Positions 34,209 to 37,854 of a stretch of 49,017 nt of DNA are shown one piece after another. The notes below the pieces were generated by a model that saw only the letters and a list, made by a program, of their open reading frames with translations, was not told where the DNA came from and did no database searches. The stretch's first letter is position 1. Every line of letters begins with the position of its first letter. The translations under genes and the position numbers were made by a program. Source of the DNA: Curvivirga aplysinae (GTDB lineage: Bacteria; Pseudomonadota; Alphaproteobacteria; UBA8366; Aestuariispiraceae); assembly GCF_009711445.1 (NCBI RefSeq), contig NZ_SMMC01000204.1, positions 1 through 49,017 on the forward strand. The letters are read 5' to 3'.

Positions 34209-34838
34209 TTACTTCTTTTCAATATTTGCGAGCTTTTCCTGCATTTCTAAAAGCTGCTTCTGTAGATCATTCAACATATCCACCGGATTTTCTGTTTCCT
34301 CAGCATCAGCCTTTGAAGCTTCAGGTTCTTTCATAGGCTCTGCTTTCGAAGCTACAACATTTTGTTCATTTCCGGCAAATGACGTGAACATATTCATGGC
34401 TTGCTCAAACATCGCCATATTTTGACGTCCGATTTCTTCAAAATTACCAAATGGGAAAACGCTATTCATATTTTCCGCTAGATAATTCTGCATCTTCTCT
34501 TGATTTTGAGCGTAATTTTCCATCGCCATTTCAAGATAATTCGGCAACACAGATTGCGGAATTCCTTCCCCATAATAGGAAATAAGCTGACGCAAGAAGC
34601 GGATCGGCAATAAATTCTGCCCTCCCTTTGATTCTTCTTCTACAATAATCTGCGTCAAAACAGATCGTGTAATATCGTCACCTGATTTCGCATCATGGAC
34701 AGTAAATTCAACACCTTGCTTCACCATTTCGCAAAGATGCTCTAATGTCACATAGCTACTCGTAGCAGTATTATACAAACGGCGGTTTGCATATTTCTTA
34801 ATGATGATTGGGCTATCACCTTTTTGCTGTGCACCCAT
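34209..34838 (-). CDS. phaR: Polyhydroxyalkanoate synthesis repressor PhaR
   Basis: 209 residues from the ATG at 34838 with AAAGGGAATGTT upstream; the frame extends to 34925 without an RBS. The N-terminal PHB/PHA-accumulation DNA-binding domain is clear (IIIKKYANRRLYNTATSSYV, TLEHLCEMVKQGVEFTVHDA), followed by the PHB-accumulation repeat ILPIRFLRQLISYYGEGIPQ-like segment, and a C-terminal coiled coil (DLQKQLLEMQEKLANIEKK). PhaR represses phasin and PHA genes until it is titrated onto PHA granules. It is divergent from the PhaE-like/PHA-synthase-like pair. Confidence 0.95.
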   Translation of the reverse strand: MGAQQKGDSPIIIKKYANRRLYNTATSSYVTLEHLCEMVKQGVEFTVHDAKSGDDITRSVLTQIIVEEESKGGQNLLPIRFLRQLISYYGEGIPQSVLPNYLEMAMENYAQNQEKMQNYLAENMNSVFPFGNFEEIGRQNMAMFEQAMNMFTSFAGNEQNVVASKAEPMKEPEASKADAEETENPVDMLNDLQKQLLEMQEKLANIEKK

Positions 34839-35086: not shown

Positions 35087-35449
35087 ATGAAAACAGAAGA
35101 TGACATGCAATCTATCACCCGTCGATTATTAGCTCTTTGGCAAGAACAAATGAGCCTGATGTCTCAAGATCCCGAAACTCTGGGATATGGGGAAGCCATG
35201 TTTAAAGCTATGGGGATGCCTGTACCAGATGCCGCAAAACAAGATACAACCCCCCCCTCAGAAGCCAAAAGCGATCCAACATTTCCATCCCGGACCGGCG
35301 AAGCGTCTGGGGCCTCGTCCAATCAGCTTTCACCTGAGCAGCACGCTGCAATGGTTGATGAGCTCACCCGTCGCATTAACGAGCTTGCTAGCCAAATCGC
35401 CGAATATGAGGCAGACCCTATTCCATCCAACACTAGCAGAAAAAGCTGA
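35087..35449 (+). CDS. PhaE-like small protein overlapping the PHA-synthase-like gene
   Basis: 120 residues (or 114 from the ATG at 35105; neither has a strong RBS). The first half (SITRRLLALWQEQMSLMSQD, PETLGYGEAMFKAMGMPVPD) is helical and resembles the start of PhaE-type or granule-associated partner proteins; a Pro/Ser-rich linker follows; the end (SPEQHAAMVDELTRRINELA, SQIAEYEADP) is an evident coiled coil. The last 220 nt also code, in the +1 frame, the N-terminus of the PHA-synthase-like protein. Both readings look like genuine protein. A C8 run at 35250-35257 lies inside the linker. Likely a partner subunit of the downstream enzyme (inference). Confidence 0.65.
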   Translation: MKTEDDMQSITRRLLALWQEQMSLMSQDPETLGYGEAMFKAMGMPVPDAAKQDTTPPSEAKSDPTFPSRTGEASGASSNQLSPEQHAAMVDELTRRINELASQIAEYEADPIPSNTSRKS

Positions 35450-36542
35450 AAACCTAGCGACAACCTTCCAAACAAATTATTCGCAACAGGACATACCTGA
35501 TTTATTTTCCGAGCTAGACTCAGAAACCAATAGACAATTCAACGATTATCTAACGGGTATCGAAACTTATCGTGCACATCCTTATACTAGAAAGATCAAT
35601 GATTTACCTGCCATATGGCGTGAAGGAAACACTTGTTTGCATGACTATACATCACTGAAGGATAGTTTAGAGAATGACCGCCCAATCCTTCTCATCCCTT
35701 CTTTGATCAATCGCGGATACATTTTTGATCTAGAAGCAAAACGAAGTTTTGCCAGATATTTAACGGAAAACGGCTATCCAACTTATTTAGTGAATTGGAA
35801 TCACCCAGATGCAGCGGAAAAACAATTTAATTTAGAGGACTATATTCTACGCTTAACTAGGATTTGCCAGCATTTAATTGAGAAAACTGGAAAAGAGCCA
35901 ATTATACTTGGTTATTGTATGGGAGGTACATTGGCAACAGGCCTCGCCTCTATATTTCCTGAATTAGTCCATTCACTTATAGCACTTGCTACACCTTGGG
36001 ATTTCAACGCAGATGGCGGCAAACAAAAAGCTATGTTATCTCCTGCATTCCCTTTAATGGAACAGCAAATTAACGCATTTGGGCAACTGCCAACCGACAC
36101 ATTACAATTATGTTTTGGCCTGCTTGATCCGATGTTATCCCTTAAAAAATTTACTAAATTTTCGCAATTAGAGGAACAGAGTGAGCAAGCTTTAAGCTTT
36201 GTTGCCTTGGAAGATTGGCTAAATGATGGCGTCCCCCTTGCGGGTCCAACAGCAAAAGAATGTTTGTTTGATTGGTATCAAGAAAATACGCCAGCAAAAG
36301 AAAACTGGTTACTCAACGGCAAAATTGTGCAACCGCAACATTTTGATCGACCAAGCCTATGTATTATCCCAATAACCGACCGTATTGTCCCCCCTGAATC
36401 CGCCCTAGCATTAGCTAACACTCTTCCCCTTAACATTACATTAAAACCATCCTTAGGTCATATAGGTATGATGAGTGCTAGTCGTGCAGAAAAGCTAGTT
36501 TGGGAACCCATTATAGAATTCATAAAAGCCTTACCACGATAA
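35229..36542 (+). CDS. PHA synthase-like alpha/beta hydrolase (PhaC-type)
   Basis: About 437 residues if started at the ATG at 35229; an ATG at 35187 and one at 35406 are alternatives. The polypeptide RLGPRPISFHLSSTLQWLMS before 35406 resembles the N-terminus I recall for this family, so the start must lie upstream of it. The lipase-like box is GYCMGG with nucleophile Cys230, as in PHA synthases that use Cys and not Ser. The acid is probably in ITDRIVPPESA and the His in LGHIGMM. It polymerises 3-hydroxyacyl-CoA, or a related acyl transfer. phaR diverges upstream and phaA follows. It overlaps the PhaE-like gene by about 221 nt. Confidence 0.8.
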   Translation: MPQNKIQPPPQKPKAIQHFHPGPAKRLGPRPISFHLSSTLQWLMSSPVALTSLLAKSPNMRQTLFHPTLAEKAENLATTFQTNYSQQDIPDLFSELDSETNRQFNDYLTGIETYRAHPYTRKINDLPAIWREGNTCLHDYTSLKDSLENDRPILLIPSLINRGYIFDLEAKRSFARYLTENGYPTYLVNWNHPDAAEKQFNLEDYILRLTRICQHLIEKTGKEPIILGYCMGGTLATGLASIFPELVHSLIALATPWDFNADGGKQKAMLSPAFPLMEQQINAFGQLPTDTLQLCFGLLDPMLSLKKFTKFSQLEEQSEQALSFVALEDWLNDGVPLAGPTAKECLFDWYQENTPAKENWLLNGKIVQPQHFDRPSLCIIPITDRIVPPESALALANTLPLNITLKPSLGHIGMMSASRAEKLVWEPIIEFIKALPR

Positions 36543-36678: not shown

Positions 36679-37854
36679 ATGACTGAAGTAGTTATCGTAT
36701 CCGCAACACGTACACCAGTAGGTTCTTTCGGTGGAACTTTAGCAAATGTTCCTGCATCCACGCTTGGAGCAACTGTTATCAAAGAAGCATTAAACCGTGC
36801 TAAAGTTGATCCTGCTGATGTTGATGAAGTCATCATGGGGCAAATCTTAACCGCTGCACAAGGACAAAATCCGGCACGTATTGCAGCGATGGAAGCTGGT
36901 ATTCCCGAAGAAAGCACAGCCTATGTGATTAACCAGGTATGTGGTTCCGGCTTACGAACGCTTGCATTAGGCTATCAAGCCATAAAAGCAGGTGATAGCA
37001 ATATCGTCGTTGCAGGCGGTCAGGAAAATATGAGTATGTCTGCCCATGCAGCAAATTTGCGTAATGGACAGAAAATGGGCGATATGAAATTTATCGACAC
37101 CATGATCAAGGATGGATTGTGGTGTGCATTCAACGGTTATCACATGGGCAATACAGCCGAGAATATTGCTGAAAAGTTCCAAATCAGTCGTGAAGATCAA
37201 GATGCTTTTGCAGCTGCTTCCCAAAACAAAGCGGAAGCGGCACAAAAGGAAGGTAAATTTAAAGATGAAATCACCCCGGTGACCATTAAATCCCGCAAAG
37301 GCGATATTGTCTTTGATGCGGATGAATATCCAAAAGCTGGTGTAACTTCAGAAAAATTATCCGGCCTTCGCCCTGCATTTGATAAAGAAGGTAGTGTTAC
37401 TGCGGGCAATGCATCTGGTATCAATGATGGCGCTGCGGTAACTGTCCTCATGTCCAAGGAAGAGGCCAAAAAACGCGGTTTAAAACCTTTGGCAACTATC
37501 AAAAGTTGGGCAACGGCAGGTGTGGATCCGGCCATTATGGGAACAGGCCCAATTCCAGCTTCTACAAAAGCCTTGGAAAAAGCAGGTTGGTCTGTAGACG
37601 ATCTTGAACTCATTGAATCCAACGAAGCTTTTGCCGCTCAATCCTTATCTGTGAATAAAGGTATGGGTTGGAATACAGATATTGTAAACGTAAACGGTGG
37701 TGCAATTGCAATAGGTCATCCAATTGGCGCATCTGGCTGCCGTATTTTGGTAACACTACTTCATGAAATGGAAAAACGTGATGCCAAGAAAGGCCTTGCG
37801 ACACTTTGTATTGGAGGTGGTCAAGGTGTTGCTATGTGCCTAGAGCGTGCATAA
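36679..37854 (+). CDS. phaA: Acetyl-CoA C-acetyltransferase (beta-ketothiolase)
   Basis: 391 residues from the ATG at 36679 with TTGGAG upstream. Condenses two acetyl-CoA to acetoacetyl-CoA (or the reverse). Catalytic residues are in place: acyl-enzyme Cys in [14 protein letters not shown] (near residue 89), His in [16 protein letters not shown] and the second Cys in [10 protein letters not shown]. Length is that of PhaA/AtoB. The context (phaR, PhaE-like, PHA-synthase-like) favours the PHA role; phaB, the acetoacetyl-CoA reductase, is not in the window. It ends at a strong terminator. Confidence 0.94.

Follow-up and report, generated by a model that had tools for sequence, protein, structure and literature searches.

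The 49,017-nt stretch of Curvivirga aplysinae DNA analyzed here (contig NZ_SMMC01000204.1; the window) contains a small gene, E, that runs into the gene of a PHA-synthase-like enzyme, C, and this arrangement is best explained, with high probability in our view, by one mRNA that encodes both proteins, 221 nt being shared out of frame and C being started within E. That the shared stretch codes for protein in both frames is very likely, indeed close to certain for a conclusion drawn from comparing genes. Sequence comparison shows protein-level conservation and a codon constraint reaching to the E stop in both frames, and it shows the arrangement to be widespread in Alphaproteobacteria. In many members of this class, the same approximately 200 letters would spell the tail of a small unrecognized protein and the start of a PHB-making enzyme, both apparently under selection. 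The features of the window are as follows.

34209 to 34838, minus strand: phaR, PHA synthesis repressor, divergent (TIGR01848, 148.5 bits, cut-off 109.45; likely start ATG 34838, open reading frame extending to 34925).
35087 to 35449, plus strand: E, small protein of 120 aa (start ATG 35087, alternative ATG 35105; from the ORF list, homologues, and the AF2 model).
35229 to 36542, plus strand: C, PHA-synthase-like enzyme of 437 aa (best start ATG 35229; box GYCMGG, motifs DRIVPP and GHIGM).
35229 to 35449, plus strand: very likely dual-coding overlap of 221 nt, C being read in frame +1 relative to E (constraint seen in relatives).
35310 to 35321, plus strand: GPRP motif of C, unchanged in every row (29 of 29) of alignment A1; its codons fall within the loose linker of E.
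35333 to 35390, plus strand: stretch encoding a predicted alpha helix in both frames, because the models of E coil 83-109 and C helix 17-39 (C modeled from 35274) coincide there.
36679 to 37854, plus strand: phaA, acetyl-CoA acetyltransferase, downstream and co-directional (likely start ATG 36679; open reading frame beginning at TTG 36667).

By its sequence, C is a member of the PHA synthase superfamily, so that the PHA-synthase-like enzyme of the original prediction was borne out. The C frame from ATG 35187 comprises 451 aa, ends at 36542, and contains RLGPRPISFHLSSTLQWLMS and LFHPTLAEKAENLATTF; ATG 35406, which had been counted as residue 178, is actually residue 74 of this frame. C of the window matches TIGR01836 (class III PhaC) at 4.7e-54 with 184 bits, not reaching the curated cut-off of 365.3, and also PhaC_N, and TIGR01836 is matched by all 29 C sequences of alignment A1 (29 rows; L029 excluded). 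The residues C215, D369, and H396, i.e., the Cys of a lipase-like box and a Cys-Asp-His triad, are invariant in 29 of 29 rows, and this triad is the definition given for PHA synthases in the accessible part of PMC6403647. PHA synthases are also the top PDB matches, both by sequence and by fold. The AF2 model of C, which starts 12 codons 5' of GPRP (35274), has a mean pLDDT of 90.8, with values of 89 to 91 for residues 11 to 40 (GPRP and helix 17-39), 76 for residues 41 to 50, and <50 for residues 1 to 8. A second PHA synthase match of the same genome (G000:C134:15176-16159) lies in a frame of 637 codons, i.e., of class I size.

The predicted polymerization of 3-hydroxyacyl-CoA by C fits the genomic setting in the window and in Azospirillum (phaR/C/phaA/phbB), and less so in Thalassospira, two loci of which have a Gate-domain gene downstream. 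Five further named loci were inspected, with a thiolase gene downstream in three and phaR upstream in two; a pha-gene setting is not universal among E/C loci.

The protein encoded by E in the window, a divergent member of its family, is predicted by AF2 to consist of N-terminal helices (residues 4-27 and 29-42), a loose linker, a coil helix (83-109), and a short tail, and its translation ends with SPEQHAAMVDELTRRINELASQIAEYEADPIPSNTSRKS before the stop codon. The mean pLDDT of this model is 77.7 and its pTM 0.35, with ten-residue pLDDT means of 84 to 96 for residues 81 to 110 and of 56 to 59 for residues 51 to 80. Residues L11, W12, and D22 are identical in all 29 aligned rows, and ELxRRxAxLExRxxxLE is the consensus of the C-terminal coil. 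Searches with these 29 rows assigned E to no Pfam family (PF09712/PhaE was matched by one row of 29, with an E-value of 0.0021) and matched ten NCBIfam families at an E-value of ≤0.1, with no PhaR-subunit model among them, in a library that presumably contains the Bacillus-type model. An hhalign comparison with ten PhaE proteins revealed no homology (probability 4.2%), and the matches from all of these comparisons and from a profile search against PDB were weak and mostly of the coiled-coil type. The scan of the same genome for PF09712 gave no match above the cut-off. Of the PhaE-like partner proposed at the outset, the small predicted helical protein just 5' of a short PhaC thus stands; homology to PhaE was not found, and "PhaE-like" is therefore to be read as an analogy. 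By this analogy, E resembles the second subunits of class III and class IV synthases in position, size, and helical make-up, and we regard it as likely that E is a functional partner of C.

The net charge of the E tail is +4.2 versus +2.3 expected from C alone and exceeds the mean of the codon redraws described below in 60 of 75 loci, which is suggestive of a basic tail as an E feature in many relatives; the E tail of the window is hardly basic. Lysine/alanine-rich tails, a feature weak in the window, are present in loci L005, L009, L010, and L011; they presumably resemble histone H1 or the tail by which PhaM binds DNA, hinting at nucleoid attachment.

Among related genomes, 47 of 59 have a C match at an E-value of ≤0.001, and the best match is strong (≤1.3e-47) in 40; the other seven are weak (about 1e-14 to 1e-19) and lie mostly in longer open frames, as expected because other PHA synthases would look so. 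A small open reading frame running into the C frame is located upstream in 28 of 29 relatives' loci, and in the 29th (L030) the contig starts within E. The best 80 of at least 348 confirmed named loci include Azospirillum, Magnetospirillum, Thalassospira, Reyranella, Nitrospirillum, Inquilinus, and Nisaea, as well as many MAGs titled Alphaproteobacteria or Proteobacteria. An alphaproteobacterial E/C pair is also present in a MAG titled Candidatus Marinimicrobia (L099, CANJRA010000007.1), whose title or binning may be wrong, because the locus clusters with Novispirillum in the tree.

Of 385 genomes drawn evenly from the class, at least 167 match C at an E-value of ≤1e-40. Within the class sample, i.e., the 146 scored of 148 loci from these matching genomes (L142, without box, and L147, at a contig edge, excluded), E was found in 132 of 146, with an identical relative frame in 130, and of the 116 loci whose GPRP-type motif could be placed by pattern, 112 showed a positive overlap and 4 (L276, L285, L292, L299) showed none. 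Three of these loci (L285, L292, and L299; family code f45) have a short coil-less E and an overlap of nearly nil, and the coordinates of L299 give a 4-nt junction with a different frame relation. In a set of 254 loci, nearly all alphaproteobacterial and with some genomes counted twice, E with coil is present in 222, and C lies in the +1 frame in 222 of 222; 11 loci have E without coil, 2 of those in the other frame, and the 21 without E by the strict profile are an overcount, since the class-sample scoring finds E in L151, L155, L235, L250, L266, and L305. Counted as distinct proteins (n = 238), there are 206 with coil, 11 without, and 21 without E. The coil form, which was called with an 8-bit threshold set for this analysis that L103 passes despite showing no coil by eye, is present in 57 of 73 family codes.

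In the window, both plus-strand frames are open from about 35229 to 35449, as had been described, with E ending at 35449. Two candidate starts of C lie 5' of GPRP, and the Shine-Dalgarno energy is -5.5 at ATG 35229 versus -0.9 at ATG 35187; the better site at 35229 leads to the 437-aa version of C and the 221-nt overlap. Among relatives, an ATG located 4 to 30 codons 5' of GPRP is present in the C frame of 86 of 100 loci, in the E frame of 33, and in the third frame of 5, and the median Shine-Dalgarno energy is -5.5 for C-frame ATGs (n = 130) versus -3.1 for those of the other frames (n = 104), reaching -7.2 where a locus offers just one candidate start (n = 31). GPRP is separated from the E stop by 107 to 260 nt (median 161; 100 loci), and the start nearest to GPRP by 131 to 320 nt (the 99 of 100 loci with a start); the start and length counts are made without L054, L103, L105, L080, L085, L108, L049, L064, L075, and L030. 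The promoter scan yielded 13 sites versus 5.4 expected, with no site standing out. Judged from this anatomy, with starts and Shine-Dalgarno sites within E, a translational link between E and C is plausible.

The same anatomy bears on the possibility that programmed +1 frameshifting joins the two frames, an E-C fusion being made besides or instead of a separate C. The constant +1 position of C relative to the coil form of E would suit such a mechanism, as would L056, in which no ATG, GTG, or TTG occurs among the 45 codons before GPRP. The locus L158 (1340-2755), from a genome of 28% GC, has a helix resembling the E N-domain in frame at the N-terminus of C and is a possible natural fusion; it scores 3.8 bits versus 2.8 for the best of 200 shuffles and is kept as a lead because of this low score in one genome. 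The enriched start codons and Shine-Dalgarno sites of C itself nevertheless make frameshifting very improbable.

Dual coding should leave traces in both sets of codons, and these were assessed in 22 hand-picked species pairs, with sign tests run on rounded rates. In the C frame, codons of unchanged residues differed at 147 of 890 positions in the overlap (0.165) versus 598 of 1,771 in the next 100 codons (0.338), and the rate was lower in the overlap for 21 of 22 pairs, the exception being L038/L076. In the E frame, the respective numbers were 82 of 884 (0.093) versus 382 of 1,392 upstream (0.274), the latter counted from the E start (405 of 1,558 for the whole open frame of the named loci, including upstream codons), and the rate was lower in the overlap for 22 of 22 pairs, barely so in three. 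The step, from 0.12 through 0.28 to 0.36, falls at the E stop codon: the C rate amounts to 0.12 to 0.18 over the 50 codons before it and to 0.31 in the ten codons preceding those, rising beyond the stop to 0.28 in the first ten codons and to 0.27 to 0.39 thereafter. Codon positions 1 to 3 of the overlap change at rates of 0.086, 0.104, and 0.174, with C as the more conserved reading, and E residues are less conserved than C residues within the overlap in most of the 22 pairs.

Lineages lacking one reading serve as a control, in which most pairs are near saturation and two are informative. No drop at the C N-terminus was observed in L298/L304, which lack the coil (19/39 versus 38/77), or in L247/L248, in which no E was found (24/46 versus 54/83, and 98/205 further on), and these unlowered rates speak against the idea that the 5' end of a gene alone causes the drop. 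By eye, L298 and L304, both of family code f84, show a stretch like the N-terminus of E, and the tail frame is still open but looks degenerate.

A constraint on codons might also stem from an RNA element, i.e., a ribosome-binding or regulatory structure, rather than from E coding, and a Shine-Dalgarno site and a start are indeed located in the overlap. The constraint pooled over the 22 pairs nevertheless covers the overlap and stops at the E stop, and the amino acid pattern of E is conserved beyond what C imposes, which renders an RNA element as the source very improbable.

How much each protein imposes on the other was determined by redrawing codons with the residues of one frame kept. When the C residues of the window (41% GC) were kept, the E frame stayed open in 16% of the redraws, and with the E residues kept, the C frame stayed open in 4%; in neither direction did any of 200 redraws score as high against the profile of the other protein as the actual sequence does. 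Across loci, the E-tail score lies beyond all 200 C-preserving redraws in 74 of 75, with 2 of 200 at or above the observed score in L037, and the score of the C N-terminus lies beyond all 200 E-preserving redraws in 75 of 75. Omitted from these counts are L054, L103, and L105 (lacking the coil or E) and L080, L085, and L108 (box or GPRP unfound by the script), and 3 of the 75 loci (L049, L064, L075) represent genomes also used for training.

These numbers weigh on the idea that C alone functions in the overlap and that E is a protein of its N-terminal domain with a tail read through the C frame by chance. GC-rich genomes often have the E frame open given C, with P up to 1.00, and L037, the degenerate-looking tail in L298/L304, and the missing coil in 11 of 254 loci point the same way; against this stand the low P of 0.16 in the window, the E-tail scores of the other 74 loci, and the halving of synonymous changes in C up to the E stop, which is not found in L298/L304 and L247/L248. 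We consider a chance tail highly improbable. The least credible alternative, that C begins past the overlap, around ATG 35406, and that what looks like its N-terminus merely reflects the coding of E, can point to that in-frame ATG and to the alpha/beta core (Pfam spans) downstream of it, but is rejected, given the invariant GPRP encoded upstream of this ATG in 29 of 29 rows, so that the later-starting homologues that would speak against the original prediction were not found, the C scores unattained by E-preserving redraws in 75 of 75 loci, the retention of GPRP in two pairs for which no E was detected (L247/L248 and L307/L152), the confidently modeled residues 11 to 40, and an annotated Azospirillum C start upstream of GPRP.

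Dual coding of the overlap accordingly agrees with the protein-level conservation of both frames in more than 200 loci and with a synonymous constraint in each that is confined to the overlap. The claim that a long out-of-frame overlap links two functional proteins is therefore supported by aligned homologues and by synonymous sites. In the tree of C calculated without the N-terminal columns, rows without the coil or without E are interspersed with coil rows, with at least 18 changes among the three states (coil, coil-less, and E-less), weakly supported deep forks, and one deep row (L305) that the strict profile scores as E-less though the class-sample scoring finds E there. This scatter favors an old overlap that was lost repeatedly, several losses being the simplest reading at low deep support. 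The coil is dispensable in some lineages, because the C N-terminus is kept there without a coil or detectable E.

In the record of plasmid p3 of A. brasilense Sp7 (NZ_CP012917.1), E (L161:5676-6203, 175 aa) has no feature in the table, although the PhaC that overlaps it is listed there as "alpha/beta fold hydrolase." The annotated start of this PhaC is a GTG that follows GAGGGAGA, lies upstream of GPRP, and precedes the end of E by 230 nt; the predicted C start is the GTG at record position 417276. The E counterpart of A. argentinense Az39 is likewise without a feature, and E may be dropped by annotation because of the overlap with C; this check covers two records of one genus, from PLSDB, which declares its tables incomplete.

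Under the preferred reading of two proteins from one mRNA, E would be translated first, and a second ribosome-binding site within E would start C in the +1 frame, so that both would be made from one mRNA at a coupled ratio and at one place. E would be a dedicated partner of C with N-terminal helices, a flexible linker, an oligomerizing coil, and often a basic tail, acting like PhaE or PhaR of class III and class IV synthases and perhaps also in granule formation. The overlap would persist because the N-terminal helix of C and the coil of E resist uncoupling by single mutations. We give these mechanistic details an even chance. Rather more probable is that E founds an unrecognized family of PHA synthase partners and that E/C is a dual-coding pair as old as the class, the coil and the enzyme helix arising from the same DNA. 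If true, Alphaproteobacteria would have a further kind of two-subunit PHA synthase, whose second subunit is missing from annotation and experiments, which suggests that work on a synthase relevant for bioplastics (that of Azospirillum and probably R. rubrum PhaC1) has left out a conserved partner.

With class III synthases (PhaC-PhaE, e.g., of Allochromatium vinosum), the E/C pair shares the short alpha/beta-hydrolase PhaC, the Cys box, and a second-subunit gene upstream. It differs in that C of the window is below the TIGR01836 cut-off, E is not PF09712/PhaE, and C has an extra N-terminal GPRP helix and overlaps E, whereas in class III (20 loci) the match to the PhaE profile stops (match end, not stop codon) about 150 to 280 nt before the PhaC open frame. 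Class IV synthases (PhaC-PhaR, Bacillus) consist of a PhaC of about 40 kDa and a small second subunit according to the accessible part of PMC6403647, and a short PhaC with a small second subunit is likewise found in the E/C pair, but the 29 E rows scanned against NCBIfam did not match a PhaR subunit.

R. rubrum PhaC1 (Rru_A0275) and the Azospirillum phbCAB operon have the order phaC-phaA-phaB in common, and the accessible parts of the literature examined on both mention no E gene. The reverse complement of a phaC1 primer (PMC9999600, in part accessible) spells VEDWLN, and the motif of the C family described here is EDWLND; R. rubrum PhaC1 thus probably belongs to this family, judging from the motif of one primer. 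In the accessible part of PMC4026134, a phaC1 copy amplified from start to stop codon was overexpressed with the native locus present, and PhaC1 increased at least 50-fold and PHA 1.4-fold. Because it was amplified from its own start codon, this copy would carry phaC1 without the first part of E if the locus is built like the others, and because the native locus was still present, the experiment leaves a need for E neither demonstrated nor refuted; a limiting partner could account for the gain, as could several other causes.

Long overlapping genes that are fully established in prokaryotes are few according to the abstract of PMC9927249. In the open-licence literature searched, no report of an overlap at phaC was found. 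The E/C pair, with apparent selection in both frames over wide divergence and lineages that lost one reading as natural controls, is amenable to testing in culturable strains. A known case of long, same-strand, out-of-frame overlapping genes in bacteria is rpmH/rnpA of Thermus. The dual coding on one strand and out of frame is common to both, but the pair described here consists of a PHA synthase and its putative partner, and its overlap is conserved across much of a class.
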